Assembly: GCF_037975245.1 (NCBI RefSeq)
Contig: NC_092582.1
Span: 21,414,577-21,478,576 of the forward strand
DNA: 64,000 bases
Direction: 5' to 3'
From: Apostichopus japonicus
Lineage: Eukaryota; Echinodermata; Holothuroidea; Aspidochirotida; Stichopodidae
Every line of letters starts with the position of its first letter. Positions within the stretch are counted from its first letter, which is position 1. The notes under the pieces were generated by a model that saw nothing but the letters and a program-made list of their open reading frames with translations, ran no database searches and had not been told where the DNA came from. This document shows, one piece after another, positions 30,237 to 62,800 of the stretch. A program made the position numbers and the translations under genes.

Positions 30237-32206
30237 AGAACTTACCTTTTACATCAAATTCACTTTTACGATATAAACTGTTTGCCGAAAGATTTTAACA
30301 TGCAGTGGCATGTATTTATACACCAATCGTTACGGCATACAATCTTGGATGAGTCTTCTCTGTGCCTTTATGTTCTATGTTCATTCCTTCCATCCATCCA
30401 GGTTTCATTTGTACTACTCATGCTCCAGCTACATGGGACATATATATCAACATGTTCAGTTATTGTAACTGGCACAGACAATTATTTAATTTTACTTACT
30501 ATCAACTACCTCAATTAATCAAGAAATCCCTGAAATCAAAAGTATATGCAAGGAAAGGTACTTTTTATCGACAGATCTAAATTCTCCTGATCAGTCAGTT
30601 TTCTATAGGCAATACAAGTGATGGGAATGGGAGGACTGACCTGAAATAACTACTACCCGGCCCAAGCTGCTACTACCCAGCTTGTAAAAATCACTAACAT
30701 CATTCTTCATTTTCAGTTACTTCATTACTACAGTTACTTTGTTATTTCATTACTTTATTTTCAGTTACATTTTTGTTTGAAACAATGAAAAGAGAGTAAA
30801 AGATTCTTGTGCATTTCTTTCATCATTTTGTAATATTTTCCTTTTACCTTGATGTGTTTAATTGTAAAATTTTGGTGAAAAATTTGTTACTATATTGTTT
30901 TGATCAACTATGTTAGTTTACTTTTACATGTGGACACTGTACTGTTTAGCCTAAGCTATCTTCCGCATTGCATACTTTGAATGCAGCAAAACTTCACCTT
31001 ATTACTCTTGGGCAGCTCATAAAATGAGCATCCTTCACGAACGTTAGCACTGCAAGGTGTAGGATTGATAGGTTGTTTCTGTTTTCAAAGGCTTGGCAAA
31101 GCAATCTTCATTACTGAAATTCATATTTACTAATGCACCCTCCAAATAGAGTTCCACCCAAAGGAAAGGCAGTTACAAACAGAGATTATGATAACAATAC
31201 GTGATCACATGGTAATGTCATGACAATCATATTTACTGAAACAAAGGAAGATTACAATATTTGCAATTAAGGATTTTTTCATTTAAGAAATCCTGCAAAT
31301 GTTATTATTTTGTAAAACAATCATGCAAATAAACATTAGCATCACGATTTTCACCATCACTATCATCCTCATAAGCCAGAAAAGCATGTGACAGTGTAAA
31401 CAACCAACAGTACATATTACAATAAATATTTATCGTGTTACCAGTCTCCCTGTAGTTTCTGTCATTTCAGGGCAAGTAAAAAAATTATCAGGGCAAGTGA
31501 ATTCTGGAAGCTACTTGCCTGACTGGGCAAGTTGTTTTAAATGTTACTGTAAAGCCCTGTTCAGGTTCTGGAGATTTTCACATGCTGACCCCAAATGACC
31601 CTCGACCTCCACTAAAAACAAATAGTGTTCTTCTACCAATTATGAAGCTGCATGCCACATATGGGAACTGCAGAGGTTTCCTGGCTGGATATACCATGTT
31701 TTAACAAGGATTTAAATTTTTGACCCCTGGTGACCTTAAATGAACTCTGACTTTCACCAAATGTTGTTAAAACTGTACATTACATAAGGCTATCATGCCA
31801 TGATATATGAGCTCCTTTGATGTTTAGGTTCTGGAGATTTTTTTGAGATTTTCACAATCTGCCCTCTGCTGACCCCAAATGACCTCCATCAAAAACAATA
31901 GGGTTCTTGTACTTATTATGGGGATGCCACATATGAGAACTGCAGAGGTTGCCTACTTTGAGATATCATGATTAAAAGCAAGGGAGTCTTATAAAACACA
32001 CAAATCCAGACCAACTTGACTGCATAGGTTACATGCCTGCCTAAGGCAAGTAACCAAAAACTACTATTTTGTCACACCCAGTGTTAGAACACGGAAAACA
32101 GCTAACATAAGATGATAATAATAGAAGTTGAGAACATAAGTCCACAGGAATGAAACTAGACTCGCATCAGTAGAGCAATGGCTGTTCATCTACAGTCGCT
32201 GCATCA
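30237..32206. other. Convergent intergenic region HMCES-DROSHA
   Basis: Holds the 3' UTRs of both genes. Plus-strand AATAAA hexamers occur at 31328 and 31421, rather far for HMCES. A short CAGGGC-ended inverted segment lies at 31470-31559 and inverted AGGTCA-type repeats at about 31560-31990. I recognise no coding sequence. Confidence 0.5.
31560..31990 (-). repeat. AGGTCA-type dispersed repeat, inverted, about three units
   Basis: GGTTCTGGAGATTTT recurs twice, with TGACCCCAAATGACC twice, ACTCTGACTTTCACC once, and ATGAAGCTGCATGCCACATATG or GGGATGCCACATATG twice. These are diverged reverse copies of the family at 27330-27750. Confidence 0.6.
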
Positions 32207-32382
32207 CTAAGTTCCACAGTGGTCATTTGTCCTCCTATTTCTGGTAGAGGAGTCTGCATATTGCTTCGGCAAGACTGGATTCCTTCGTCTATTCTTATGG
32301 TCTGTGAACTTTGGTGGTTTATATTCATCAGGGTAGAGAGACGACATCAGTTTGGTTTGAAACTTGATCTGTTCGTACTCTC
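32207..32382 (-). CDS. DROSHA: DROSHA exon 19: C-terminal tail and stop
   Basis: Acceptor tttctag; frame continues from KG as [20 protein letters not shown], then [16 protein letters not shown], and ends at TAG 32209-32207. The tail is basic and polar and does not match the vertebrate C-terminus I know. The exon choice rests on splice phase and position, so it is less certain than the others. Confidence 0.7.
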
Positions 32383-35300
32383 CTAGAAAGAGGATACATA
32401 ATCAACATTAGAACACACAGTAGTAACCAGGATTAACGTTTCCCCTCGGGAGTGTAAAATGGATTTAAGAGCCCTTGTTTATTATGAGTCATTTCCAAGA
32501 TGTCTGTGATTATGTTATTATCACTCAACTAGGAATAGTCTTTGATTCCCACCAATTCCCTAACCCATGTGAAATCATCCCACATTACCTGTCGTTTTGG
32601 CACAGACTCTCCAGCAGACAGATGGTCTATTTCCACATATTGGATCTCAGTAACACCAATTCATCAAATATCAAAATCGTACTCTGAAACACACTGGTTA
32701 AAAGTCCTACCCACAAAAATGAAAACATAAACTGCACCTCAACCTATGATAAGAATTGACTGATAACACACAATCTGAGTGTTCTCCTTAAGGTGTTAGA
32801 ATATTGGCCCTCTTACGAAATCTATAGACAAAGGTGCACAATGTAATGTTCCATACGTACATTAGTAAAGTCTGCGGACCCAAATGTGGAAAACCAAAAT
32901 GATATGTTGATTACTCTCGACAATGATCTTCAGCATCTCAAGGTTAACTATAGATTACTTGGCAGAAAGTGGAATGCTATGCTGACAGGTTTTGGCATCA
33001 ATTGGTGGAATGCTGATAGCATGTTCTAATGACTTTAAACAAGTCAAAGTTTATGAATGGTAATGGCACATTGAGTAACAACATGTCAACTGAGGTGAGG
33101 GTACTTCATGTTAAATCATGAAGGAACAATTAAATAACCCACTGAACTAAAGAATCTTTTGATAAAACCTGAAATGTTAGCAAAAACAATAATTGATTAT
33201 ACAGCATTGTTAAGAATGCAGGACTCTGCGTCCGGGATGCAATGTTTTAAACAAAGACATAAAATCTTCAAACTGCTTGCATTTAGATGAAGCAAGTTTT
33301 TTTTGGAGAAACAAACCCCAAGTACACACACCCACAACTACACCTATGCAAAACATAACAAAACATTATTGATTGAATGAACCATGTGCGTCCACATTCA
33401 AACTACTTCATACCTCGGCAAAAGCAGCCATTGATGCTTGAGTGTTTTAATCAACAGTATATCATAAGTTATTTACATAATGTAATGGGAAGGGATTATA
33501 ACTGATTTACAGTCCAAACATTTGAAAATATGTTTCCCAGCAATGAGTATTAAATATCCTTTAATAAAATACCTTTGCTTAAGGCATCTTTTGCTGCCAT
33601 TTTCTCTGCAAGGCGAACACTGTAAGAGAGGAGAGAAATTTGCATGTTAATTTAAAAGAAGCAACTTAGTGTTTTCTTTTTAAGTCTTTTTAAGCATCTA
33701 TACTGTTACAATTGGCTTTTGCCGATTTCCAATATTTCAAATCCCAATATTGCTGATACCGATAATATAATATTATTATAAATATAACACGATGGAAGGC
33801 CATATAAGTTTACAATCCCTCTATATTTAAACTTGCCTATCTTGATCTTAAATGATGCCACTGATTGCTCATTAAGTGTTCTTTTCTACTACAAAGATTT
33901 TGTTTTGTTTTCGTTCTTTAGTTTATTTCTAACTAATATCGGTTGCAGTAAGACTGGACTGTATTGCCTTCACAAGGTTGGACTGCATGATGTACATGTT
34001 ATACTATCCGTTACTTTTAATTATATTATGTTTGTATCCTATGGTGATGCATGAGAATGCAAATTTAAATGCTTCTTATCTTCAAACACATCATATGTCT
34101 CATCTTACTTCAAATAACACAATTGTGAAAAGATAATTTACAGTTTGCATTTCATCAACGGAAAGTGTGTTTACTATATAACTTAGCAGAGAAAGCATCC
34201 TAACCTGTACGGGTACTGCTTGCTTACAGACCTCTAAGAAGGCAAAGCAAGGTGGTCCGGCCAAACTATTTAACGGTCCCGCCAAAACTATTTAACACGC
34301 TCATACCTACAAGTGTAACGCTTTTTCAATTCCCTATCAAATTGTCTTCAACAACTGATAATGGTATAGACTTCAACATGTCTATCTTGTACACATTAGT
34401 AGGCAATATTGGTCAGAATTAAAGGTTCAGTATTCAATTGTAGGTCAAGGATAAAGCAGTCATAGTTTATGAATATTTGCTAGCATTTCCTAAAGCAGCA
34501 CATAAAAGATTAACAATGATCGGACGGGTTTCCCAGTGGTGTAATTTAATGCTGTAAACAGATAAATATGGAGAGGCTTACCTCTCTGCTGATCCAACCC
34601 CAATCCTTTTCCCTTTGAAGAAAACTGCCACAGTGTAGACACTTGCATTGGTTGGTCCACTCTTCTTAAGGAGTCTAAATGAGGAAACAATGATTTGATG
34701 ACATATGAAGACATTCTGGGCTTCATGAGACACACTACGAACTGTTTAATCCAATAGAAAATTCAGACCAGTTGTCTAGTCTCCATACAGTAAACATTTG
34801 AAAAGCCTCAGGCTATTCCCTTCAAGCAATTAGGAATATAAAGTGATGACTTGAACACTCTGGAATGGAACAAACTAACATAGTGACTGGATTGAGTCAG
34901 CGCAGCTGAACTGTCTGCCTACATGGGATATTTAGTTAATACATGCTGCCATTAAAGTCACTCTTATACACTGTTGGATGATTTACTATACAGATCATTA
35001 TTTATACTAACTTATTTAAGCAACAGTCAAGTAAGGTAAAGATTGATTTCAGTTCATTCTCAGAACATGTGCAAAGGCTCTAAACATAACTTAGACCACT
35101 GTACAGGTTCAGGCACAATTTGGTAGGGTTTTACTGCTTTAGAAACAGTTCTTTCTTTCTAAACGAGGTATACGCTGTTAACATACTTCCAATATCAGGC
35201 TGTTCAGGTCCTTATGACCAAGGCTAAGTCTGTGAACTTACTTAAATAGTGGAATATCAGGCTGTTCAGGTCCTAATATCGAAGGTAAAACATGTGAACT

Positions 35301-38300
35301 TACTTGTATTGTGGAATATCAGGCTGTTCAGGTCCTTATATCTAAGGTAAAACATGTGAACTTACTTGTATTGTGGAATATCAGGCTGTTCAGCTCCTTC
35401 TTTTCTCAGGGTAAGAACAACCTGCTGCAGTTTAGATTTGTCATCATTCCAGTCTTGCTCAATAATAAACTCCTGCAACGACAGCAACCAGAAAGCAAAC
35501 AGACTTAATAGTGACTCCTTGCCATGTTCTATATGAGAACATTTCATGATTAGTGTACTCCAATATGTCATATATACAAGCTTCACTTTTGTAAGTATCA
35601 TGTTTCCAAGGTTTTCACACCTGACTGCAATTGACCTCAAAAGACATTTCACCTCCAAAGGGAACACTGGATTACTAGAACATAATATTCTTGGTTGTCT
35701 TCCTTGGGAGAAGTGGGACGCTCTTTAATATTACAACTTTCTTCATGTTGTCCACAATACCTTGTACAAGTTTACTATTTAGAAAGGAGAGGCACACATT
35801 ATTTTACCTTTCATGATCTGATCTCGAAATTAATTTAACAATAAATTTCAATATAAAGTCAGTTTAACATGCCAGCCTACTGTAGCAGACATATTGGATA
35901 TTTGGATTGGTATCCTAAAAACTCCTTAATTAGACTTACCCTCAGTCTTGGGAAGAAACAAACATTGCAGAAGGCCTCCACAACATCAAGACCACTGTCA
36001 ACATACATGGCACCAAGGAGGGCTGCAACAACAAAATAAATATATATTATATCATGTATTGTTTCACTGAGAGATTCACAAAAATCTAATGAGAACATAC
36101 AAAGGTGTTTCTTTTGCCACTTTTACATGAACTGATCTTCACAAGGGTTTTTTATATTCAACTGTATTCCCCAGTACTTGACATACATTGTTATTGCAAT
36201 GTCATACTTTTTCTTTAATAGTGGCCCCTATTAATCAATGGTGATCTTATCAGGTAGGTGATATTGTGCTTACAGTACAAGGTTTTCAGACTCTTTTTGA
36301 CCTCAAAATGATGTGTATCCTCCACAGAGAAAAATAGGATTCTTGTACTCACTAATTGGGATCAAAATTGCAAAGCCTTAAGTTCATCCAATGATAAGTA
36401 TGATCAACTTTGATGACTACGACCTGTGACACATTTTATTTCTAATGCTCAAACTAAATGAAGATAGAGGCAGAGGGATACCAGTACTCTGAATGATATA
36501 CACACATATTTACCTGGATACCCTGTACAAACACTAATATACACACATATTTACCCGGATACCTAAATAAAGAAATGCAACTTTGTTTCTCCACTCTTCA
36601 CAACATCAAAACAAGCATGCCAATCGATAAACCTTTTCAACTTATGTCAGCTTAAAACAACTCACTGCGTGGAAGGCTAGGATATTAATTCTGATTAATT
36701 TACAGAGTTGAGCTCTAGTTTATATCTTACTAACCTTCCAATAAATCAGCTTGTAGCTTCATTGGAACACCTTTCCGAGCAAATCTGCAAGCTGTATCAT
36801 CCAGCATGTACTCCTCCAAGCCAAGGTCTTGACAAATAATAGACTGAGTCCTGTTGTTAACGAGACAACTTCTCAAAAGCTTTAGATGCAAAAGAAAGAA
36901 AACATGTGTGACCATCAGCATTGACCAGAATACAAACACATATGAAGATCTTACAGACTTAATACAAGTTTGTTTTAAATATGACATTTAACATAGCCTA
37001 TATAGCCATTGGCAGAAACACATGACCACATCTCTCTACTGGTTGTAAACTACATGCGGTTATTCATCCACTTAAAATGAAGTCAAATTATCTGACTGCC
37101 ATGCCCTTTTGCAAATCTATGGGGACCATTATTGATATTTAACCTTTATAACAAAACAATAAAGCCCTTCTTGCATATGCACCAACGTCATTTAAGAATC
37201 ATAATACTGACATGTTATATCTTCAAACAGTCAATACTTACAGAGAGATGTCCCTCGTGGTGTTCTGGAAAGTGCTTGAAGAGGTAAGCAGAGACTACAA
37301 GTTGAAGTACAGAGTCACCTAGAAACTCCATCCTCTGATTGTGACCTCTGAAGGCAAAACAATAACAGAGGACCCATTAGTAAGTGGCAGGCTGGTTAGG
37401 TCTGTTACTAACATATGTAAAGCAATTTACTTGCTCATGTACAAGCAACTAGATAGTGATTAATTGCATCTGCCTTTACTCTACAGCAGGGGTTCCCTAA
37501 CTGGGGTGCATGAACCCCAAGGGGGTGCGTGAATCCATCCTAGACATTTCTGAAAGTCAAAACTAGAGTACTGTTTGTTGAGCTATTATCTGATATGTCT
37601 TATAATTTAGTGATGTACAAAAGTCGTACCTATCGAGAAACTCTTTTCACGTTCCATACTCATATGTTGCCATAGTATTACCGTACCATGCATGTGATAC
37701 TTGATCTCTTACGAAGCACTGTTATGAGTATTATAGTATAATAATGACTCAGATCGTGTCTCGAAAAGTTGGGGGTTCTTGGACAACTCTGCCATCCACA
37801 GGGGGTTCGTGGGGGATAAAGTTAGGGAAACCATGCTCTACAGCCTAAATATCTTCAAAGAACATACACATTACTCAGCACAATGGCAATCACAAGAAAG
37901 ATGTAAAACTTACAAAGTCAGTTCATTGTAGCCGATGGTTCTTTGGGTAAACGCTCTTGCAAGCAGACGAATGTGTTTAAACTTCATTCCAGTACATTCT
38001 TCAAATTCAGTCATCCTCTGGGAAATCAAGTAGGACATACAGGATCTTCAATACTTCAATCACATCAAGATGGAGAATCACATATTATACCAAAAACCTT
38101 GTTACTTTGCAGCTTGGCAGCTCTTCAATAACATGTTTAACAACTGATATTTTTTTTATAGAAAATAGATCATAAAGTTCATCTTACATTGAAAGCAGCT
38201 AATTGGTCAGTAATTCTACCAAACCAAGGGACTATTCAAAATAAGAGTGCAGTTGATCAAACTAAGATATTCTTCAAAATATGTCACCCAAACAAATGTT

Positions 38301-41300
38301 TAGTAATTAATGATTTTTTTTTCTCCAATAATCAGCAACACCCAAGCACTGTTCATACTAGTACTAATCATTTACCTCATTACTGAAACTCAATAAGTCA
38401 AGCTGATAACCAACATTGTTATGGGATTTTAGGTTTGAATAACATCAAATTCTGCTTTATACTAATAAATGGTTCAAAGGAGTTCCCATGCAGACAGGAG
38501 AGATTTCAGATGTGGAAGACTGTAACAGACCTGTCATCATAGCTTCTATGTATCTATGTTAAGTTTTATTAGCCAATGGATCATATTTAAACAAAGTGCT
38601 GCTTGTACATGTTTTGGGGGTTTTGTAGTTGGGAGAGCATCAAAGCTCCATTTTGAAATCATCTCCAAAGTTTCCTAATCTTTTTCTCAAATTGCAAAAC
38701 TAAGAGGGAATCTTGCTGCATCCATAGTTTGCAATGATTAGCAAGAGAGTAATACTATTTGATATCCAGAACACATCATTGTAGTTTCTAAATACCGATG
38801 GTAAACCTCAGTCTGGGATATCGAGTACAGCTACCACGAACATTCAGATGATAAATCCTACTGATTTCATTTGGTGTGTGATATTTCATTCTCGACAAAC
38901 TTACTTGAAGAACAGGGAAATCTTTTATCATATGTCTGTCACCATCTGGGAGTTGTATCTGGAAAAAAAAAACATGACAAAAGTAGAGAAAAATTTGGAA
39001 ATGGAGATAAAAAGAAGGTTGGTATATTACAAGAGGGACAATTTAGCTGGAATAGATGATATGCTGAATCTGAGCAAACATATTTGTGCTGTGAAGGAAC
39101 ATAAACAAAACTTATGTCAGAGCACTACTACATCTTAAGTGATGGATACCACACAGATCAGTATATATCAAATATTCTAAGAATCAAAGCATTATACAGC
39201 CAGATTCTCTAACATTTTATAATAGTTGAATAGAAAGGGTAAAATAATCCTAGTCTGCAAACCAACGTTAAAAATGATGAATGATTTACTTTGTTGTCTT
39301 GTACCTTACAAGATTTACTAGCTATTGGTAACTTTATAATTGGTGAAAGGAATATACCACTAGTTTAAGATCGTCTCAAATATCATCTAAAACCACAGCC
39401 TTACAGGATCTCTTAAGATGTTGATATGATTTGGTTCTGTAGCTTGGTGACTTTATTAAATTATGTAATTGTAAACAAGAGAGCGAGTTACATCACCATG
39501 GCTGTCAGGGTACTTATAACAGATCCCCAGAATCCAGTAAATGCTTCTCTTGAGACAAAGGTGGCAATCAACGAAGTTTTAGTCATTTATATTTGATATG
39601 AAATGTCGTCAAGATATGGTTTTTTATTTTTCACGGAAATATGAGTGTTTATTCTACTCTGATCACCTGGAATGGGATCAAAAAGTTGATTGAACTTAAA
39701 GTTGGTTGGTTATACTTTATGTTCTGATCAATGTACTTAGCCTTGATCATTCTAATTCTGAATTACTACTGTTCTTTCATATTTACCTTATGAAATCACT
39801 GTTACTGTTTACTGTTTGTAAGAGTGTGGTGGCCAATTGGCTCGTGAATCAAGGATTGCTGGTTTGATTCCTGCCAAGTTTATTACATTGTGTCCTTGGG
39901 CAAGATGCTTTATCTCACTTGCCTCTCTCCACCCAGGGGTTAAATGGGTACCTGTGAGGAAACTTGTCATTGGGGGCAGTATATAACTGCTGCCGACTGG
40001 AGGGATTGTCTCTGGGACAGGTTATCATCGACCAGGGGTAATATATACATCTGTAAAGCGCTTTGAAACCTATCGCTGGTACAAAGCGCTATATAAATCA
40101 AATACTATTATCATTATAATTATTCATTTACCTGTAAAGGATGTTTTGGATAACGAGCCCAAATTTGGCGTAGATCTTCTTCTTCAAACAAAACTGTACA
40201 GAACACTCTCCTTGCTTCCTCGATGCCCTTCTCTAGGTATATTGCTCCCATAACTGCTTCTAGACAATTTGCAACTGCATGCCTTAAATCTTGGTCTCTG
40301 CATAGGTCTGGTCCATGAGAGTAAAGCATGTAATGCTCCAACTGCAGCTTCTGCAGATTAGAGAAAAGTTATCAATTTAAAACCACAAGCTGAAAACAAA
40401 CAAATGATATAAGCTCTAAACTGATTACACCAAAGAGAGAACATTGTTATTTGTGACTATTTACAATACCTTTGCAAGTTTGGCAAGGTGTTGGTTTTCC
40501 ACTAAGGCCTGTCTGTATACAGCCAATCCACCTTCCTCCACATCAGGGAATAAGTGATAGAGAGTTGTGCTGGTAATAAACTCCACTACGGCATCCCCAA
40601 GGAACTCCAATCTCTCATAGTGATGGATGTTAGAACTAACCTCCTCCTCTTCAGCCAGTCTGGACATAATCTTCACCAAGTTCACAATTCCTATGAAGGG
40701 GGATAAAACGGTTTAAACTATTCGTAGGCACACATCACCGAGTTGGGATTATGACACTATATGAAGAAGTATTGATGGCATATTCACAGTTGAGTGCTTT
40801 GTAGTTGAAACACCTTACCATATTTTATAAATATTTTTACTTGGCTATAAAAGATATTCATACACCATCAAGGATGAAATAAATATGGGTTTATGTTTGG
40901 TTGAACTGACCATTTTGCATTTTATTTATTGCAGTTTTGTAAAGACAGTACTCCAAAATGTTCTACCTCAAGGGTTTTGTTCCTTATCAGCAAGATGACC
41001 AGGATATACAAGAAACGGACTTAAAATTTAATTTCACCTCAACCCTATAGCAAATTAAAATAAAAAATGAGTGGTCTACTGATTGCATTAACAGAAGGAA
41101 AGGATATCATCAACAAATTGAAAACCATATTGTTTTCCCCTGGATATGATTTCATTCTTTCTATCAGATTAAGTCAATTAAATAAACCTCCAGTTTGGGA
41201 AAATATCATGAGACAGTGGGCATATTTTTTCACATCAATATAAAGTTTACATTGTCTGTCACTGTAATACAGTATGCCTTTCACTGGATCATAGAGGCAA

Positions 41301-44300
41301 AAAATCATGGAGTTAGCCTGTTTATAAAATATATTTGGATTTTTTTTTGGCACCAAACACAAGAAAGGGCAAGTACCTCATTAGAGCGCATGTACATCCA
41401 ATGTATGAGATTCACCAGAGTTATATGCTGAATTACACACTAACCTTTCTTTCTGTTATCATTGGACTGCCAGTTCTTTTCACCAAATTCAGGTTGACGA
41501 ATCCCACAATTGTACAACGAATTGCGAATATGGTCTGAATTCATGCCAAAGGTTAACCTGTATGAAGGATGGGTCATGGCTCGCTGAAAAGGAAGCATTG
41601 TAGGTATTATTTATTCTTATAAAAATCACTGGAGTTTGAACAAAACACCAAAAGTTATTAGCTTTTGTGGCCGCATGCATGTTTAACTGCCCAACAACAT
41701 ACAGCTTTCAGCCTGTCCCATCAAACTGTATCAAACCTACAGACCCACATTATAAAGTAAATTTGTTGATTATATTTCAGCTGTTTAAAGAGATAGCAAG
41801 GAAGCTGTAGAAGCAGGAAATTAATGGACAAAGATTATTGTCGCACTTCCACCTAATATTCTTGTTTTTACTCTGTTCTTTGAAGCAACAATAAACAGAC
41901 ACACAAACATATGAACATATCTTACACAAATTATTATAGACAAGCTTTTCAAAGAGTTTTGCAAGACAAAAACTTCAGGAATAAATCAATATTCAGCTAA
42001 TTAAAAGAAAGAGCAACAAAGTATTAACCATTTTAGTTCAAAAAGTCAATTAGGCGATTTCTTTATTGCAAAAACAATATAACAAATCGTTTACAAAGAT
42101 ATGGAGATCCATGTGCTCAATCAAACATGTTTTGGGGCATTTTCAGTGCTAAAAAACAATGCAACATTAAGCAAGTCACCTTTCATGAATTATTCTCAAC
42201 AGCACATAACTAACAAGAAGCTATGTGATATTTGAAGTATGAGGAATTCACTTTTACCTTCAGGAGGACTTTGTCTGTGAAAATATTCCCCAACTTCACA
42301 TTAAGTTTGTCCAGACAGAGGTAATAACGCAGATAGTTGACGAGAACTGGCATTATCAGGGCATGCTGACAAGGAAAATGGTATAGAAATTTCCAATTTT
42401 GAATCCATTACATGCACAACCTTCACAATGATTGTATGAATTTCAAGACAGAAGTATTAATCTGCCAAATACAGACTTTAAACTCTCATATAAACATCTG
42501 ATAAGGTCTAGCCTATTTAGCACATTTTAGTATTGAATGCTGATCACCATGTATCAATACATAAAGAGCATGTCAAGAAAGCCCTAAGCTACCAATCTGA
42601 CTATGGAAATGACAGCATTGACATTTAATTCACCATGACCCCCCCAGCCTCCCAACCCCCCCTAATAATGCAAATTTAGTGCCCCCCCCCCTAGCATGTA
42701 GACTCCTCTGCAGCTTTAACCAGATTTTAACAATGGATGTAAAATGAAATGAACCATGAGTGATGCATGCTTGATTTGAAACCATGTCATCTTACCTGGC
42801 AGACATCTGACCTGATGCCAGTAATGAGAACCTCATTGCAGGGAATCTCTGAGTTCACTTCCTTTGGGGAATAACTTTCTTTTCTGATTTTTGCCAGCTC
42901 ATTCTGAATATTTATATAGGATTGTTGCTCATCATGTGAAGCACGACTACGATTCAACAGCAAATGCCTCATTCTGAGAAAGGACTTGAACAGTTTCTTA
43001 TATCTGTAAGAAATTAAAAAGGATTGGTGTAACAGCATGGCTATAAAACTGTGTCCAACACTTTTAGTAGGACAAGTAGGACAAATATGGGTATGGCAAT
43101 AAAAAACAAACAATATCCAATGATCGAGGAACATTGATGATGAGGCATAATCAAATTTGTGATAACATATTAAAAAAAATGAAGTGAAAATAAGGATTGC
43201 TGGACAGCCTATATTTTACATCCTATTTCATAATCAGGATTTGTATCAAGGGTGAAAGGATTCTCAAGTCTCTACAGGAAATACAGTACACAAACATATC
43301 ATACTTTGGGTCAGCAGCATAGGTAAGTTGTGTAGGCATCACTCCTTCATGAATAATGAGAGGATATTGTTTTGACTTCTTGTTGGAAACAGCTTGATCT
43401 CTGTCTACTTGGTCACATCGCACTGATGAAGGTTTCTGGAAGTAAATGAAAAACTAATCAATGGTAGCCATTTCTTGTACAAAACAGCCCCTATTTCATA
43501 CAGATTGGTGTTGAGTTTGTGATTCCTGAGGTATTTCCCCCTCCCCTACTGTCCTCCCCCAGCAGCATACAACCAAGGGAGGCAAGTACTGATGATGAAT
43601 GCATTTCTGACGTTCAGTTGATACTGTTAAGACACTGTGGGTGACAAACTGAACCAGTAGAAACTTGTTTCATGTGGATATTAGAACTTGCAAAGCCATA
43701 AAATCGAAACAAACATACCAAACAGGTTATCTGATTAGCTTTTCATCTATCTACATAATTTGTTCTAGGTCTGACCCTCTTTACATTTAACACTTGGTTC
43801 AGACATAAAGCAGCGCTTCACCATCTAACATGCACAGCACCTTTAACTGTCTGCTAATCTAAATAAATATGTTATAACATGTATATGAACAGCACAAAGT
43901 GTACTTGATTATAACTACTTTCCATTTGTGTGTAGTATAAGTATATTAAAGGGTGACTTTAGTAACTTCTCATTTCTAAATCATTTGAAGATTGAAGTCA
44001 TAGCAAACTAAAATTAACACTGGTTTTGCCTCTAAGAGTATTATTACTTTTAGTATTATTAGTTGTAATTAAAGCAGCTCCCCCTAGAATGCACATGCAG
44101 CTGATCATGAGACATTTCTTTCTTCAGCTATGCCTCTTGTTTGAAGGCTGCTAAGATTTAAATATTCACACAGACCAAATCAGATGGCAGCAGATCCTAC
44201 TGATCAATTATGAATATTCATTAAGGTTGTCAATCAAGGTGCTGTGCCCTGCCACTTTAAAAATGGACCACTGTACCACTAATGACATGAAATGGAAACA

Positions 44301-47300
44301 CATCATATCTTATTACATACCTTGCCGGGGCATGTTACTATCATATCGTGCATGAAGTCTAAGAATCGAGACCACTTGATGGTGTCTAACTTCAGTATGG
44401 AAGCGAGTTTGTCCTCGGTAATGACTGGTTTACGAATCGTTAGCAGGTAGGTCATCACCTGGTGCATTGACAGTATCTCTTTCCCATTGTTTGGCAAAAG
44501 TCTTGCAAATCTGGGCATAAAATGGAACCTCCTGCAGCCTCCTGATTTGTCATCATAATCAAAGTCATATAGTTCTAATATTTCTGTAAATATAAAATCA
44601 CTGAACATATCCAGCTCCTGGATGACAAAATTCTCCGGTGGGTTTTCTTTCACCAGTGTTATCGTGTACTCTATACTAAACCGTATCACATTGCACGGGG
44701 GGATGTTGTCGAGTGGCACGTGGGAGAAGAGTGACATACCCTCAAAGAAAAACTCTTGTTGATCATATTTAATGATTGTCGGATAACGAAAAATAAAGTT
44801 TGTACAGGGAGAAATCTGCACTGTGTAATGGTGAAGTTTCTTCACATTGTTTCCCAACTTGTCACACATTGGATAGGGTTCTTCTCCAGGGAAGATGTTG
44901 TGACGAATTCCAAACTTTTGGGCTTTGAGGCTGCATCGACACACTGGACGATCGTTTAGTTGTCCCTTGTCATTGTACCACAAATTTTTGGCTAATCTCG
45001 CGGGGTGCTTCTCTTTTAACTTGAGGACTTTGATAGCCTCAGTTGTCTCTTCCTTCTCCTCATCGCTCTGCTCTCCATCACTCTCACTGGACGAAGATTC
45101 ATCTGAGATGTCGAGAAAATAACACCTAATTAATAACTACCTTATCAACGAATTGACTCTTTTACTCAACTTATCTCCATGACAAACTTACATTACATTA
45201 CATTACAACTGTCTATCATTGTTGCCAGAGATTTATGCTTTTCACATTTCCCATCAAATGTGACAGGCTTCTGGCAATCAACATTGAAAAACCACAAACA
45301 ACATATGTCCAAGTTTCTCATCTTAACTTGTCCCATTTCCAAAGTTATCAAATATGTTTTGATTGCTGCTGACCTCAAGTAATGTTTGACACCAATAACA
45401 AAATGTGTGTTGTTCCAAAGGATACCATATTTCCATAAGTGACATTTTCAAACAGAGCAAAGCATCTCTTGCAGTCATCACTGAAATCCACAAAGATACA
45501 AGTTCTGTCAAAGCATCACTTCTAAAAATATCATGTCTATATGCTATGGCACACAAATATGTACAGACAAAACATTAATAAGGGTGTTAATGCTATCGCT
45601 GGATGCACTCGGGCTCCGCCCTCGTGCATCGCTTGCATTATCCCCCGATCGTGCATTAATCCTGTGAGTAACGCACGCTAGACCATTGATTAACCCTGTT
45701 CATTCATACACTACCATTTGTGTGGGGGGGAAAATCATAAAACAAAACATTTTTGGTTACATATAACCAAAGATTTATTAAAGTGATGCCCGTAATTTTA
45801 CCGTGCATTACTCACAGGATTAACCACGGTCAGCTGACCTGAATGGACCAATAGGATTTAGGAATCTTTACTAAGTATGAATGAACAGCAGCTTACCAGA
45901 ATGATGATGGTGATGGTGATGATGATGATGATCGGAGAATGGTATATCAAACTTTGGTTGCACTTCTTTGGCTTTGGTGTACTCATCCAGAACGTCCGTC
46001 TGAAATCTGTCCATCAAGACTTCAAGGTTTTTGGTGCCTGCTACTGTAGATCCCTCCTGAAATAAAGTGATGTTCAAATCTGGAAGCTGAGATCACATGA
46101 ATTAACATTACAATGGTGATTTGATCAACAATTGTAGTTCTTTGACATTATGTCCCCTGAGGTAGCATCTATCAGTACAAACTGACAATATATAGCATCA
46201 CAGTTACAAATGGTATTGTAATTAGATTCTAACATTTTTCTTTGCAGACTTGCTATAAAAGAAATGGTTTCATAATTCTTACCAGAAAAACAAAAGGCTT
46301 TATTAGTGTTTCCTTGCCACATTTCATATAAGAATATTTTTAATTTAACACTGCAGACAAGATGCAAAAGATAACTTTAAGCAGAACTTTAGTTGTTGTA
46401 TGTCATAGTACAAAAAAAAAAAACTAAGAGCATGTGATGTTTCTATCGCTGTTGAGATTTTCAAGATAAGCACCTTGAACATGGAATGCTTCTTTAATGC
46501 TCAATTACCCATGACAGGTAGGGAGTTAATATGGCTTCTAGTGACCTCAGACAACCCGTTGACCTCTATGAGAAACAATGGCATCTTTGTATTCACTTAG
46601 ATGAATTGACCCACTCCCAAGTCTATGAATCCATGTTGTGGTTAATAAGTTTTCATGTTTACAAGCCAAGGGAATCACATAGACAAACATGTACACAAAC
46701 ACCCACACAATCACCATTGCATAGATTCATTCGTGTTTGGCGAGGAATAAAAAAATAAGGCACAGATTTGCAGTGATGATATAATTATAAGAGAAATTTG
46801 TTTCTTTCATTAGGAATATCAACTAACACTAGGAATTTGCAATATAGACTAGTCCCCACCCCCTAGAGAACAGACCTGAACAATTGGTTACTATACCTGG
46901 AGAGTTTCAGGACTATTGGTGTAGTAGTTCTCCTTAGATGACGATTGAACCCATCTACTTGAGGGTCGGTTGCTTTCATCTTTAACCTCTGTTGCAGAAG
47001 AGGCAGACATGATTGATTCAAGCAGTTCATCCTCTGCCCTTTCTTTTGCCATGTCTTGTTCAAGATGCTCCCATTGATGGCTGGATTTTGCACTTGAACT
47101 GTTGAACATAAAAGGAGACAAGTCTTCCTATTATTCTTTATATGCAGTTATGCACAATAAGGCTCTTTCTTCATCCGCTTCAATTAAGAAAACAATACAC
47201 AAGACAATATGTTGGATTCACTTATATGTTGGAGTCACTTATAAGTTGGAATATGTTTCGTTTCGTTTCCTATATTTCACTTTTTTTTCATTTTTACAAT

Positions 47301-48347
47301 TACATTTACAATAATGAATAATACCAATGTCAAAGAAAGAAAAAAAGCATGGAAAATCTGAAAAAGCTACGCTTACACACTTATAAAGTGCAGATTCACC
47401 ATGAAAAAATTAAATACAATACGCTAACTGCACCCCCCCCCCCCTCTCCCACAACATATTATCTTGTGTATTGTTTTCACTTACCACATATGATGTTCAT
47501 GCAACCTTTTGGAGTTGGTGATAACAAGCTTCTCAGACATTGATCTCTTTTGACCTAAAGAACCACTGACCTGTCAAAATTTATTTACACGTAACTGCAA
47601 CAGTAATTTCAGAATCAAAAAGGAATCTAAAATTCCTTGTTACTGGAGCTATAATCATAGTTTTGTTGACAAAATTAATAATTATGGAGTGTTTCATTTC
47701 AATCTACTGTTGTCTTGTTTTGTTGTTCAAACGGTTGCCAAATAAGTGATTTAAATGAAGGCATTAACAGCAGCTTCTACTAACCTCTTCTCTGTCGATG
47801 GTGATAGCCTGCCTCTTTTATCTCTTTGGGATGAACTGTACTCAAAGTGCCCTCTTCCACTACGCTCAGATCTTCTTTCATCTTCCCTTTTTCGTTTTGA
47901 TGAGCTCTCTGAAGATTTCTCTGAAGAGATACTACTTCTCTCCCTGTATCGCTCACTTGAACTGTGCCTCTGCCCAGAAGGACTGGCTTCATTTCTGCTA
48001 CGATTATGTGGATATCTTTCTTCTCTGGGGGATTGTTCTTGGCGTCTTGAAGAGGTAAATCTTTGACTGGAGGAGGAAGGGTGATCATCTCTTCTAAATG
48101 TTCTATCTTTTGCGTATCGATCATCAAACCTAGTTCTACCTCTGTCATACCGTCCTCCATCTGAGCTGTTCCTTTGTGAGCTTTCTTGCCTTCTACTGTC
48201 ATACGATCTTCCGGACGATGCTACATTTGCACGTTCCCTGCTCCTGCACTGGGAAGCACTACTGGAAGAAACTGCTTGGTTACCAGAAGAATCGGCTCTC
48301 CTATGTTGATCGTAACTGTGATACGAATGGTGATTTTTCTGAGACAT
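32207..48347 (-). CDS. DROSHA: DROSHA, nuclear RNase III of the Microprocessor, complete
   Basis: Nineteen coding exons on the minus strand: 48347-47785, 47098-46897, 46056-45897, 45102-44321, 43436-43315, 43003-42796, 42365-42258, 41583-41445, 40690-40470, 40350-40132, 38958-38905, 38017-37914, 37347-37242, 36879-36735, 36022-35940, 35472-35366, 34674-34582, 33619-33573, 32382-32207. Phases all agree: 1212 residues (human 1374). By family knowledge DROSHA with DGCR8/Pasha cleaves primary microRNA hairpins in the nucleus. Visible: RS-rich N-terminus; central platform (309-680); RIIIDa with Glu790, Asp794, Glu866; RIIIDb with Glu968, Asp972, Asp1041, Glu1044; one dsRBD (about 1080-1154). All expected catalytic acids are present. 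The vertebrate Pro-rich N-terminus is missing, ten His occur at 298-307, and the last 58 residues do not resemble vertebrate DROSHA. Confidence 0.96.
33573..35472 (-). CDS. DROSHA: DROSHA exons 16-18: dsRNA-binding domain
   Basis: Exons 35472-35366, 34674-34582 and 33619-33573. They encode [20 protein letters not shown], then [40 protein letters not shown] and [13 protein letters not shown]. Together these are a canonical alpha-beta-beta-beta-alpha dsRBD. The donor of exon 16 is duplicated downstream (see the 62-bp repeat). Confidence 0.93.
35191..35392 (-). repeat. 62-bp tandem repeat made from the end of DROSHA exon 16 and its splice donor
   Basis: The core AATATCAGGCTGTTCAG starts at 35191, 35253, 35315 and 35377, an exact 62-bp period. 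The rightmost copy is the real exon end; the others are intronic. On the minus strand each unit holds CCTGAACAGCCTGATATTCC and, in copies 2-4, a GTAAGT donor (GT at 35365-35364, 35303-35302, 35241-35240). The leftmost copy has diverged. Confidence 0.92.
35940..38958 (-). CDS. DROSHA: DROSHA exons 11-15: inter-domain link and RIIIDb
   Basis: Exons 38958-38905, 38017-37914, 37347-37242, 36879-36735 and 36022-35940. They encode [53 protein letters not shown] (Glu968, Asp972), [30 protein letters not shown] (Asp1041, Glu1044) and NVCFFPRL. RIIIDb cuts the 5' strand. Exon 11 is only 18 codons. Confidence 0.94.
37487..37835. mobile_element. hAT-type nonautonomous element with perfect 8-bp target duplication
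   Basis: Flanked by CTCTACAG at 37479-37486 and again at 37836-37843. Ends CAGGGGTTCCCTAACT and, inverted, CATGGTTTCCCTAACT match at 14 of 16 positions. Subterminal GGGGGTGCGTGAATCC and GGGGGTTCGTGGGGG are typical of this class. It is 349 bp, has no ORF, and lies in the DROSHA intron between exons 12 and 13. Confidence 0.92.
38018..40131. other. DROSHA introns around exon 11
   Basis: Two introns flank the 54-nt exon 11. Most is A+T-rich DNA without recognisable structure, except the SINE at 39821-40120. Plus-strand open frames near 38848-39138 overlap exon 11 antisense and are not convincing genes. Confidence 0.55.
39821..40120 (+). mobile_element. tRNA-derived SINE with LINE-like 3' tail
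   Basis: Head has an A-box-like GTGGCCAATTGGCTC and a B-box-like GGTTTGATTCC, at pol III promoter spacing. The body has TGTCCTTGGGCAAGATGCTT and CTCTCTCCACCCAGGGG, phrases common to several animal SINEs. The tail is TAAAGCGCTTTGAAACC, TACAAAGCGCTATATAAATC and an ATTATC-rich end. It lies antisense in the DROSHA intron, its tail reaching within about 12 bp of the exon 10 donor. Confidence 0.88.
40132..40690 (-). CDS. DROSHA: DROSHA exons 9-10: RIIIDa catalytic part
   Basis: Exon 9 (40690-40470) has the RNase III signature [14 protein letters not shown] with Glu790 and Asp794. Exon 10 (40350-40132) has [20 protein letters not shown] and [15 protein letters not shown] with Glu866. RIIIDa cuts the 3' strand of the hairpin in characterised DROSHA. 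A SINE sits within about 12 bp of the exon 10 donor. Confidence 0.95.
41445..43436 (-). CDS. DROSHA: DROSHA exons 5-8: connector and RIIIDa entry
   Basis: Exons 43436-43315, 43003-42796, 42365-42258 and 41583-41445. They encode [72 protein letters not shown], then [18 protein letters not shown] and [12 protein letters not shown]. These align in order with the human connector helix and the start of RIIIDa. All acceptors and donors are GT-AG. Confidence 0.93.
44321..45102 (-). CDS. DROSHA: DROSHA exon 4: acidic Ser stretch and platform/PAZ-like domain
   Basis: Acceptor catctcag, donor AAG|gtatgt; 782 nt. Starts [19 protein letters not shown], then [35 protein letters not shown]-like [17 protein letters not shown], and [20 protein letters not shown]. 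The last are strongly conserved in the central domain that contacts the pri-miRNA basal junction. The CxC and later Cys/His residues fit the zinc sites reported in human DROSHA. Confidence 0.95.
45595..45830. mobile_element. Fold-back element with 21-bp inverted repeats
   Basis: TTAATCCTGTGAGTAACGCAC at 45656-45676 is complementary, with one mismatch, to 45803-45823. To its left a further hairpin pairs GATGCACTCGGGC with GCCCTCGTGCATC (45602-45630). It lies in the DROSHA intron between exons 3 and 4 and has no ORF. Confidence 0.75.
45897..47098 (-). CDS. DROSHA: DROSHA exons 2-3: linker, with ten-histidine run
   Basis: Exon 2 (47098-46897) ends [14 protein letters not shown], matching the SENYY segment before the human central domain. 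Exon 3 (46056-45897) has [16 protein letters not shown], as in human STVVGTSRLRDLYDKF, then PFSD and ten consecutive His codons (CAT/CAC mix), donor TCT G|gtaagc. The repeat is imperfect at DNA level, so it is not just one slipped triplet. Confidence 0.88.
47785..48347 (-). CDS. DROSHA: DROSHA exon 1: RS-rich N-terminus
   Basis: ATG at 48347, in-frame TGA 14 codons upstream, donor AAG AG|gttagt. The 187 residues are rich in Ser, Arg, His and Asp-Arg pairs ([33 protein letters not shown]). In human DROSHA the RS region follows a long Pro-rich stretch; here translation seems to start directly in the RS region. The antisense frame open over the same interval is a by-product of codon bias. Confidence 0.88.
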
Positions 48348-49807
48348 GATGTGGTCTTTGTTCCTGTGGTTTATCCCTTGATTGGTTCAATAGCTTGCCA
48401 CCATGATCATTACCACTAGAACTCTGCAGTAATTTAATACTAGGAGCCTCAATCAAGAAGAAAAGTTGCAAGTTTAATTTAGCTTGGGATCCTATGACTT
48501 GGACAGATGATGATGCCGGAATGTGATCATACCTCCGATGTAAAGGCTCATGGTCACTTTTTTAGCAATAAAACATGAGCCCTGCATGACAAAGTCTCCT
48601 ACAAAGCTCCAACTGCACAGGCCTGCAAACTATGAAACTTTACTTTATCCACTACTTTGTTGTTTAAAGTGCACTTTTCCATCTGTGGTCCATCATTGTG
48701 GTCCTAAAATTACTGTAAGGGGAAAAAGAGAGATGGTTTTTATGGATACTTTAATAATGTAAAAAAAAGACACCAGGATTCAAGGTGCCAATTTCAATTC
48801 AAGAATTACGGCCGTTTTGACAATCAATGTCAAGTTGGCTCATTATTGACCTCTTGTTAATGTCATGTACTGAAATAAAATCATATATAGTTCTGCCTGT
48901 GTCATGTGCTTATCAGAACAAAACCCTTTTATTAGTAATTTTATGCCTCCTGAGTTCTTTGCTATCAAGGAACCTTCAAGGAGTGCACAATTTTACTACT
49001 TGAAGAAGAAATCTTGAAGCACCTAGAGTAACCAAATTTCATGTTTTGATATTCTCAAAGTATACGGTGCAAATGCACTTTTAAGCTGAATTTCTACATG
49101 CAACTTAAGGCATTGATTCTGATAAACTGGACTTTTTGTCTTGAGATTTGGTAACCCAATAACATTTTGAGTGCTTCATGTTTGAAATATTCGTAAACCA
49201 AAATTTGGCGGACTTGATTTTCAAAAAAACTGTCTTTTTATCAGTCATTGAGGCTTATAGAAATTAATATTTTTTCCATTTTATTTTAAAGATACACTAT
49301 TTTTTGGAGTGATTTAGTAGGGATTTTCCACGTGTTATTACTTTAATGCTCATCAGAGCCCCAGAGGCACTGTGCATGTTAGTACTAATAGGCTACATAG
49401 CTGTCATTAAACATTTTTCAATCACCTGAGTTACTTCTTACATTGTGCTTGACCGCAGTGTACTGTTTGTAGGTCATATGATGCTATGTTTACTACTTCA
49501 ATTTTACAAAAAGTTTCTTGGATTCTTGTAAAGAATTTTTGTAAGAGCATGACAGGTGTCAGCAGGGTATGGTCATGTTTTACAATACAGCAATTAGTGA
49601 AATTTACTTTACCGAGTGGAGAAGAAAGTTGGCAAGTTTGGCAAGTAATTAGGAGCCCCGGGCACCCAGCTCATACTAGGAATGCCCTGATATGGATACT
49701 AAAATTCCATAAGTTTTTTACAGTAGTTAACTGTAGTTGTTAAATTCTGTGCTAAATGTTGACATTCCACCAGATGGGAGATGTAATTTGTTACCACTTA
49801 ACTGAAG

Positions 49808-57201: not shown

Positions 57202-60200
57202 GTAATTGACAAACTTACATTTAATGTGACAATTAATCAACCAAAAACAGTGTTACTGAATTATGCATAGCAGCAAAGTAAAGCCGATTGAATTATGAAT
57301 TTATGATGGTCATGGACATGCTGAAGATCTTGAAAGCTAGTAGATTAGACTCATCTTACGAGTAGCTAATGTCCGTAACTTTCTTGTAAATGTTCAACCT
57401 GGTGTGAGCTTTAAGTCACACATTACAGTTAATGATGTGTAGACCTGTAAAGTGTGATGTTCCTGGCTGATTTGTTAAGTTGCTTCTTTTTTTGGTGATT
57501 TTTTTCTCCAACTTTACTTTAAACTCTTGTAGAATGTATAGTTTCGGGGAAGTGATAAATTTATGACAATCAGAGTTTCATTACATCATATACCAATCAT
57601 ACTTAACCATATGATATTGACAAACCATTTTTAAGTGGTAAAACTTTGGATTGAGAAATGTTTTCTGTGAGTGTTCAGTTTTCCTTCACATAGATGCTCT
57701 AGTTTTTAATTTGATTTTGGGACCATACCACATTCATGTCATTAAACGATAGCAATGCAACAAAGCCCTTTCAATTGGAAAGTCATAAGTTAATGCTATT
57801 AGGGACTTGCAAGGATGCAAATGTCACAGTAAAGAACATACAATTCTGGTTTGGGAAAAGAGTATCAAGATTATTTCTGAACGTTCAAGTTGCTAATGAC
57901 CATGCATGCCAATTTTATGTAAGCAGGGGATGTGAACCTCTAATATTTGCAGGAAGGGTTACAATAATTTAGTAGTCTCAACTGTGCACTTGTACTCAAA
58001 CATAAAAACTTAACAGTAGAAGAAAACCGGGGAAAAAAAACAAAATAAGAGAAACTGAAAGGAAATGATCAATGAATAAAAAACAAATATAGGAAAATGA
58101 AAGGAAATGATAAAAATACACAACAAAACATTAACCAGGTTAAGCTCTGGTTACACTAACAATTTCCCTTTGAACAATTAAAAGACACCCAACCCCCCCC
58201 CCCCCAGCCTCCTCTTTGCCTTTCACTAGATTCACTGTTCTTGAATCATTCTTTTTGCAACCAAACGAGTGTTGCTTTTGAAAGCAAAACTTCAACGCTT
58301 ATCTCTGAAAATATTAAAGTGGCCCTGTTGGAGAGTTCTGTAGGTAGTGTAACGTTGACCAGTGCCTCCCGAAGTCCAGCTGCTTGAACTAATAAAAATC
58401 TTTAACACATATCAAGACAAAAATCGGAGAAGAGGTTGATGACTGGTTGATCTCTTATTTTTTGATTTATTAAGTCGATCTTTGATTCACTGGCATATGA
58501 ATTTACCACAGATTATGGCATTGACAGACTTTACAGAGACTTTGATAAGCAGTTAATAGAAATGATACAGGAACTTTCTGTACACTTAAGCAGTAACACA
58601 GTTAAGCACTTAGGAAGTTACGCAGTTAGGTAGTTACACAGTTACGCAGTTACGCACTTACGCAGTTACATTAACTCGTGGAGGCATACAAGATATTTTG
58701 TTGGGACTCACTTAACAACAGGCTTAAAGACTTAACCAGTTTAGATTCCTAACTAAAACATCTCTTTTCGAGATCACAACCGAACCAGTACGTGGGTAAA
58801 TGTATTTACAGTTGAAGGATAATACTAGCGTTTGTTGAGCCTCCTAGTGAAGTCGAAATTACAATTATCGAACCCCTATAGAAAGTGACAACGAATATGA
58901 TGTCTTAAAAATACACCCTAGTTTCTTGTTACTTAAATGTGCACTTAGCGCAACGATAGTTTTCCTAGAATTCCCTAGTGGTACGAACAATATCCCGCGC
59001 CACCCCAAAGATACCCGATTTTATCTTTCTTAAGACAAACAATTAAACCTAGAAGTCATGCCCAGCACATAATCGTGTGATAGAACAAATATACCAGTGA
59101 AGTGGTAGTAACTTACAGAAAATAGGCGTTCTCTCAGTTCTCTCTCTGTCAGAGGCCAATCTCGGAATACCTCGTGAGCGTGGTGAGCTAAAACTAATAA
59201 AACAATCTGCGCTACCACTAACAAGGGGAACATCTCAAAATTCGGGTGCTGATTCAGCAAGGTTTATAAACAAACAGGGGTACGATTTTCATTGGCTGTC
59301 CCCACCTGCAACTCGCAAAAGCTCTACACATGTTTTTGGAGAGGGGCCATCGACGGGTAGAACTGAGGGAACGCTCATTCTACACATATTTTGGGAGAGG
59401 GGCCATCGACGGGTAGAACTGAGGGAACACTCAATCCTAAACGAAAATATTACAATACAATTTACTTAAAGGGATACATTTCCATTACAGTAGTATAAAA
59501 TGTTGCCAGCTATAGTACCAGTAGTATAAGCATATCTATGAATACATTTAATTTATCTTTTTTTTTGGGTAGATTTGATGTCGCCTAAGAAGTTGGCACT
59601 GAACGGTAACGCCTCTACTTGTGAAAAGACCGATATCGAGACTGAGGATGATGAAGGCTGGATTATTGATGAGGGCGATGCATCTCAACCAGCAAACACA
59701 TCAGAAGATCAAGATCACCACACAAAAAATGGTGAAAACAGTAACGATAACTTGATAAAAGGACGAAGGAAGCAAAATTATCCCAAGTTGAGTACGACGA
59801 TTATTAAGCCAGTGATACCTGCTAGTTTAACACCAATGCAGGGCTGGAGAGCTACTGGTAACCCAGTTCAGACTCACTCCGACAGGCAAAATGACAATCT
59901 CTGTAGTCCTTCATTGCACGCCAATGCATCAGTAAATGTTGCGCGTACACACATGAACACTTCACCTCAAAGTACAGTCAGTACTCACAACAATTTGACA
60001 TCCAATGTATCTATTCCTAAAAGCAACTTGATGCCTAGCAACACTCGCGTTTCTACTCAGTCGGATCAAATAGTGATGCCTGTCATTGATCCCTCGTCTG
60101 TTGTTAGCACAGCAGTTTCTCAGTCCAGAATACTGAAACCAGCATCCAATAATAATAATAATAGCCCACTGGTATATGCAAAGCTAAAACCAAAGGTTGA

Positions 60201-62178: not shown

Positions 62179-62495
62179 AATTAACTTTAATCCAGTGACT
62201 CATGCATTATAAATAGTTCCAGGTTAAAGTTGATCATTTTGTCAGCTATCAAATACACTTCAATTATGTAGCACGTACACAAAGGTGAGAGTTATTAGTT
62301 GGTAACAGTTTGTGGTAGCTGAAGGAGATGTTTATTACCTTTGGTGAGTATATTCTTACTATGTGGCAGTGCAAAGAAAGAAGAAAGAGTACCATATCTT
62401 AGGAAGCAAGTCAAGATCAGTGTATAGCCTATATAGTCTTTCCATTCATCAATTATGTTTGATGTATGTTAGATATACTTTATGCTTTACACATA

Positions 62496-62800
62496 CTACA
62501 GATTCCTGTAGCAACTAGTTGTGTGATATATGTGTGAGTTACATTGTGTTATTTCCACAGACTCCAGATACCTAGCACCTGGCTCTGTGTGATTTATGTT
62601 AATTGTGTAATTTACATAGACTACAGATGTCCAGAAACTGGTTGTGTGATGGATGTTTTTTACATTATGTAATTTATGCAGAATACAGATACCTATCAAC
62701 TGGTTCTATGTTAAGGTTGTTACATGATGTAAACTAACAGACTACAGATTCCTAGCAGCTGCTTCTTTGTCATGTACTATTTGATGTAATCTTTCATGAT
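62496..62800 (+). repeat. About 60-bp minisatellite in the zinc-finger gene 3' flank, five units
   Basis: The CTACAGATTCCTAGC-like phrase starts at 62496, 62562, 62621, 62683 and 62742. Each unit continues CTGGTTCTGTGTGAT and TTACATNNTGTAATTTA-like. Units are about 70-85% similar by eye. Confidence 0.8.

Follow-up and report, generated by a model that had tools for sequence, protein, structure and literature searches.

A tandemly duplicated exon-intron boundary in the DROSHA gene of a sea cucumber resembles the mirage minisatellites of amphioxus

Tandem duplications of exon-intron boundaries, known as mirages, are described in amphioxus in Adh3, in the globin genes BflGb6 and BflGb9 and in TnC, with similar repeats in PGBD5 (PMC3087553, PMC3902484); both of these sources cite Canestro et al. 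2002 for an earlier account. According to these papers, the repeated units measure 10–72 bp in Adh3, 60 and 108 bp in PGBD5 and 150–160 bp in the globins, donor and acceptor boundaries are both duplicated, and copy number is variable, apparently without disturbance of regular splicing. For BflGb6, in which the repeats lie on the acceptor side, reverse-transcription PCR suggests regular splicing, and two haplotypes carry 6 versus 3 copies (PMC3087553). The 60-bp units of PGBD5 adjoin the 5' splice site and are present as 2 copies in one sequence version and 7 in another (PMC3902484). A related event is described in PMC4974935, in which a potato RdRp gene gained an intron by tandem duplication across an intron-exon boundary. 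Here we analyzed a stretch of 64,000 nucleotides from the sea cucumber Apostichopus japonicus (contig NC_092582.1, positions 21,414,577 to 21,478,576; hereafter the window), in which the end of a DROSHA exon, together with its splice donor, is repeated as a 62-bp tandem array extending into the following intron. This array is probably a tolerated boundary minisatellite of the mirage type, in which the exon-proximal donor would be the one used and leaked RNA carrying a stop would probably be degraded.

The assignment of the host gene to DROSHA, made in an earlier note on this DNA, is borne out by homology. The exon at the array and the three that follow it matched seven PDB sequences at E<=0.001, all of them Ribonuclease 3 or Drosha (best E 7.1e-26, with a query that was one residue too long where two later exons meet). 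When the open segments of the minus strand are joined, they match several separate parts of the human DROSHA protein (best E 3.7e-234). Its label as exon 16 is consistent with a by-eye count that starts at an arginine/serine-rich (RS-rich) exon at ~48.4 kb, a numbering to be read from that exon only. We also observed an ATG triplet array of 10.7 units (45901-45932); on the minus strand it reads as ten consecutive histidines within what is probably a DROSHA exon. The parts of the gene around the array are as follows (window coordinates throughout).

35366..35472, minus strand: DROSHA exon ("exon 16" from the RS-rich exon), 107 nt, starting in phase 0 and ending in phase 2 with ...CCA CAA TAC AA, leading into the double-stranded RNA-binding domain (dsRBD); defined by open frame, homology to human DROSHA and boundaries
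34675..35365, minus strand: host intron, 691 nt, phase 2
35362..35364, minus strand: in-frame TAA reached when donor 1 is skipped (AAG TAA)
34582..34674, minus strand: next exon, the first part of the dsRBD (31 residues), by homology
33573..33619, minus strand: further dsRBD exon (16 residues), by homology

Tandem Repeats Finder (TRF) reports the array at 35191-35399 with a period of 62, 3.4 copies and a score of 325, which confirms the tandem array of 62-bp period that had been claimed for this exon end. On the minus strand the array begins ~33–34 nt before the end of the DROSHA exon and then runs into the intron. The GTAAGT donors named previously at 35365, 35303 and 35241 (minus strand) are all in place, and a fourth, donor-like site had been missed. 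Copies and donors are given below, with the slash marking the cut.

35337..35398, minus strand: copy 1, exonic (33 nt of exon plus 29 nt of intron), from TRF and copy alignment
35275..35336, minus strand: copy 2, within the intron, differing from copy 1 at 3 positions, from copy alignment
35213..35274, minus strand: copy 3, within the intron, differing from copy 2 at 12 positions, from copy alignment
35150..35212, minus strand: copy 4, decayed, low end approximate, from copy alignment
35360..35365, minus strand: donor 1, exon-proximal, CAA/GTAAGT, score 9.59, keeps the frame
35298..35303, minus strand: donor 2, CAA/GTAAGT, score 9.59
35236..35241, minus strand: donor 3, TAA/GTAAGT, score 7.69
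35181..35186, minus strand: donor-like GAA/GTATGT in copy 4, score 7.36

Of the 62 positions in the unit, 3 distinguish copy 1 from copy 2 (unit positions 5, 56 and 62) and 12 distinguish copy 2 from copy 3, all of these at unit position 27 or beyond. The earlier count of four copies stands for the three that carry GTAAGT; the fourth is not a full copy, for its first 22 nt equal those of copies 2 and 3 and the rest is diverged with an alignment gap of ~7 nt, yet it extends through the donor-like GAA/GTATGT at 35186. The array region has a single full match in the assembly (671.6 Mb), and no second copy or haplotig was found in a search that skips common words and would miss a diverged paralogue. 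Other identities for the array were rejected. It folds no better than shuffled sequences (z -0.04; 91 of 200 shuffles matched or exceeded its stability), and within 32000-49000 there is no Rfam hit at or above the gathering score of its family, so that there is no sign of a hairpin or of pri-miRNA-like self-cleavage. A protein-coding repeat is ruled out by the immediate stop, and a mobile or dispersed repeat by the 18 weaker genome matches of a 901-bp query, all of which fall outside the array at query positions 133-316, that is, upstream in the preceding intron. The corresponding stretch of that intron (35485-35668, minus strand) holds two pieces with 75–84% matches at 18 other places in the genome, and these are dispersed repeats.

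Joining donor 1 to 34674 gives the conserved join PQYK-LLKKSGP, aligned with human PLYK-TLQTVGP, and no other donor of the array leads into the dsRBD exon in frame, in agreement with the previous claim that a dsRBD follows from the exon-proximal donor alone. The AAG TAA that the earlier note pointed to past this donor is indeed present; it is not a property of the array, however, because any phase-2 intron starting with GTAA yields NNG TAA. If donor 2 were used, this TAA (35364-35362) would lie 58 nt before the new junction (more than the 50 nt of the usual criterion) with two further junctions downstream, and nonsense-mediated decay (NMD) would be expected for such RNA.

To compare the strength of the donors we used a matrix derived from the donors of the gene itself, of which 17 were scored, including one uncertain site; a further donor at ~42.3 kb was not included. 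Donors 1 and 2 are outscored by two native donors and equalled by one, placing them in a tie for third among the 17. Since copies 1 and 2 differ only at unit positions 5, 56 and 62, the sequences around their two donors are the same from -28 to +22, with no difference in those 50 nt. In mammalian assays with duplicated donors, the intron-proximal site is often preferred. Which of two equal donors is used is left undecided in the available part of PMC8724738.

A likely history of the locus can be outlined as follows. A segment of ~62 bp over the DROSHA exon end and its donor was most likely tandemly duplicated via slippage or unequal exchange, placing the extra copies in the intron, and the site of the first break may be indicated by the near-match of the exonic AAGGAGCTG with AAAGAACTG in the downstream flank. 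The identity of the exon-like blocks, in contrast to the decay of the intronic parts, would be explained by subsequent exchange with, or conversion from, the exon side. Donor 1 would be chosen for its position, as the first donor and the one that ends the known exon, and not for a better local sequence, and the intronic donors would act as decoys. Occasional decoy use would give an mRNA with a stop one codon past the exon, which would probably be removed by NMD, and the resulting loss of output would be tolerated, leaving the array close to neutral.

On every feature examined, the DROSHA array fits the amphioxus mirages: exon-derived sequence is present in the intronic copies of a tandem array that spans the exon-intron boundary, splice signals are kept across copies (GTAAGT in copies 1–3, GTATGT in copy 4), the edge copies 3 and 4 are diverged while copies 1 and 2 are near-identical, and several unrelated genes of the same genome carry such arrays. 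These further arrays were found by searching the genome for pairs of the donor 9- or 10-mer at array spacing, with four motifs and with match counts that are lower bounds. Counted by match, the donor motifs gave at least 93, 52, 89 and 90 pairs and the reversed motifs at least 88, 55, 119 and 80 (324 versus 342 in total), and donor motifs are thus not favored over reversed ones. Matches were merged by hand (same contig, within 5 kb) into 85 loci, some of which are not arrays. Twenty-three of these (DROSHA and 22 others), mostly picked by eye for exon-like letters, were read with their flanks. Eight of them, one being DROSHA, are exon ends repeated in tandem together with their donors, a figure that is a lower bound and not a rate. 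In the other 15 no convincing exon was seen by eye, and the one of them that was tested against Pfam gave no match. The seven further exon-end arrays have periods of 52–67 bp and from 2 to at least 24 copies. Among the eight genes, four were identified via PDB matches and one via a sub-threshold Pfam match, and three are without a firm family.

DROSHA: 62 bp, ~4 copies, exon share 34 nt
ATAD2 (L032, contig C9): 59 bp, 2 copies, exon share 32 nt; PDB E 8.4e-40, Pfam AAA match below cut-off
DDX42 (L047, contig C18): 52 bp, at least 24 donors, exon share 27 nt; PDB E 2e-13
Dynein intermediate chain (L050, contig C4): 58 bp, 2 copies, exon share 23 nt; PDB E 6e-13
RPC5-like (L042, contig C19): 60 bp, 4 copies, exon share 34 nt; Pfam E 8.1e-5, 22.5 bits (cut-off 23.1), no PDB match at E<=0.1
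TPR-like (L043, contig C7), possibly TTC17: 65 bp, 11 copies, exon share 29 nt; weak PDB matches, mainly to TPR proteins (best E 5.6e-6), no TPR match in Pfam
Gln-rich gene, less certain (L031, contig C19): 67 bp, ~10 copies with 9 donors, exon share 33 nt; open frame and splice signals, no meaningful family
Gly-rich gene, less certain (L035, contig C17): 56 bp, 9 copies, exon share 39 nt; open frame and splice signals, no family

In six of the eight arrays the stretch that use of the second donor would add contains an in-frame stop. The exceptions are ATAD2 and the TPR-like gene, where this stretch is free of such stops and shifts the frame. More generally, arrays with a period of 40–100 and a score of at least 150 occur at 9 places in 20 arbitrary 10-kb samples (200 kb) and at 3 in the window, and the DROSHA array is one of several in a genome that makes many tandem arrays. 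Runs of variant copies in the DDX42 array appear by eye to recur in order, and this recurrence suggests recent expansion. Two more minisatellites, with units of 56 and 59 bp, lie in the window at 59323-59433 and 62486-62761, upstream of the DROSHA exons found.

The earlier note had proposed that the array could be a control point specific to DROSHA or could produce a form of the protein that lacks the dsRBD, and neither proposal has positive support. As a control point, the intronic donors would be used in a regulated fraction of splicing events, transcripts with the stop would be degraded and copy number would set the level of DROSHA. The equality of donor 2 with donor 1, tied for third among the 17 scored donors, the placement of the donor-2 stop 58 nt ahead of a junction with two more after it, and the retention of 22 exon-derived nt in every intronic copy are all compatible with this, but unrelated genes share the design (ATAD2, DDX42 with at least 24 donor copies, the dynein intermediate chain and further genes), decay is under way in copies 3 and 4, arrays are common in the genome (the 9 places in 200 kb), and published mirages are reported to spare regular splicing (PMC3087553, PMC3902484). 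We therefore consider a control point unlikely. A stable truncated DROSHA, made through an intronic donor or through intron retention, is still harder to credit and seems very improbable: its frame would read ...PQYK followed by the stop, downstream of the RNase III domains, but the stop position predicts NMD of the spliced forms, making degraded RNA the likelier product, and a retained phase-2 GTAA intron would give the same stop without an array, so that the array adds nothing specific.

That the array is a source of a new intron or exon, through intron gain by tandem duplication, has precedents in the potato intron created by a boundary-crossing duplication (PMC4974935) and in the proposal that mirages are such a source (PMC3087553), and AG dinucleotides do occur within the array. 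Against it, the one mini-exon that was followed by eye, which uses the AG of copy 2, runs into a TGA when read in the conserved frame, and the copies decay; we regard intron gain as a slim prospect. Short tandem arrays can be mis-assembled, but the copies here differ from each other by 3 to 12 bases and similarly built arrays occur elsewhere in the genome, which makes an assembly artefact scarcely believable.

Several regularities nevertheless weigh against a neutral boundary minisatellite. The 12 differences between copies 2 and 3 all fall after position 26 (P 0.0006 uncorrected; 0.011 by circular-run permutation), and the 22 exon-derived nt are unchanged in copies 2–4 while the rest has diverged. 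This unchanged block could reflect selection on the exon-like sequence, but it is also accounted for by conversion from the exonic copy. Across the eight arrays the exon share is unusually uniform (23–39 nt); tested against a uniform breakpoint, the spread gives P values of 0.0006 to 0.014 and the range P values of 0.002 to 0.04, depending on the assumed lower bound. Such uniformity is not predicted by random duplication, and is a lead only, since the loci were picked by eye. Counted by merged loci, the donor motifs gave 31, 8, 25 and 21, compared to 14 for one scrambled motif (67 matches, versus 99 for its own reversal; none of the 14 loci was read). Three of four motifs exceed this single control, and there may be a modest excess, which one control does not settle. 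A bolder possibility is that this genome, and perhaps echinoderms at large, would have recurrent donor-centered arrays, each unit combining ~31 nt of exonic with ~28 nt of intronic sequence about the 5' splice site, generated by a process tied to the splice site, and that copy number in DROSHA and DDX42 would tune output via NMD and vary between individuals. We hold this to be rather improbable. Polymorphism in the copy number of the DROSHA array is plausible by analogy with the amphioxus loci.

Two observations concern other parts of the genome. A short dispersed sequence bounded by CAGGTAAGT and ACAGGTAAGT resembles a small repeat with splice-like ends; the one place inspected is locus L040, and it was found at seven places in all.

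C4:8233640
C16:41678390
C17:15200875
C17:34827666
C19:2825078
C19:15946477
C20:1750541

The best COX1 match of the genome is on contig C35. Translated with genetic code table 9 (AAA=N, AGA=S, ATA=I), the code of echinoderms and flatworms, it reaches 923.2 bits against its top PDB match, compared to 882.4 with table 5, which points to an echinoderm. On contig C29 (14745-31219) there are five further COX1 pieces, possibly a mitochondrial fragment, a nuclear mitochondrial insertion or an assembly duplicate.

Among the open-licence papers on mirages that were listed we found no echinoderm case, and the titles and abstract openings listed for DROSHA isoforms (dsRBD, NMD), sea cucumber Drosha, boundary duplications, donor minisatellites and competing donors contained no report of the DROSHA array. 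With this array, mirages would be known from an echinoderm as well as from amphioxus. Should splicing always take the first donor, position would be the sole deciding factor, because the two donors share 50 nt of identical sequence, and the locus would offer a natural test of models of 5' splice-site choice; in other arrays of the genome a single exon is followed by as many as about two dozen copies of its donor. Such arrays may be a wider source of cryptic splice sites, of copy-number variation at exon boundaries and of intron change.

Compared with known systems, the DROSHA array shares with mirages a minisatellite-like duplication of the boundary, many copies with splice signals, occurrence in several genes and edge copies that escape homogenization. 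It differs in its echinoderm host and in that all eight cases are donor boundaries (the search covered donors only) with periods of 52–67. Length polymorphism and regular splicing are reported for amphioxus. Unproductive splicing coupled to NMD is known in RNA-processing genes, and here, too, use of an alternative donor would be predicted to give a premature stop. As in potato RdRp, a short tandem duplication includes a native splice boundary; unlike that case, in which the acceptor side was duplicated and a new spliced intron arose, the DROSHA array multiplies donors only, and no new intron was found in it. The closest likeness is thus to the mirages of amphioxus.

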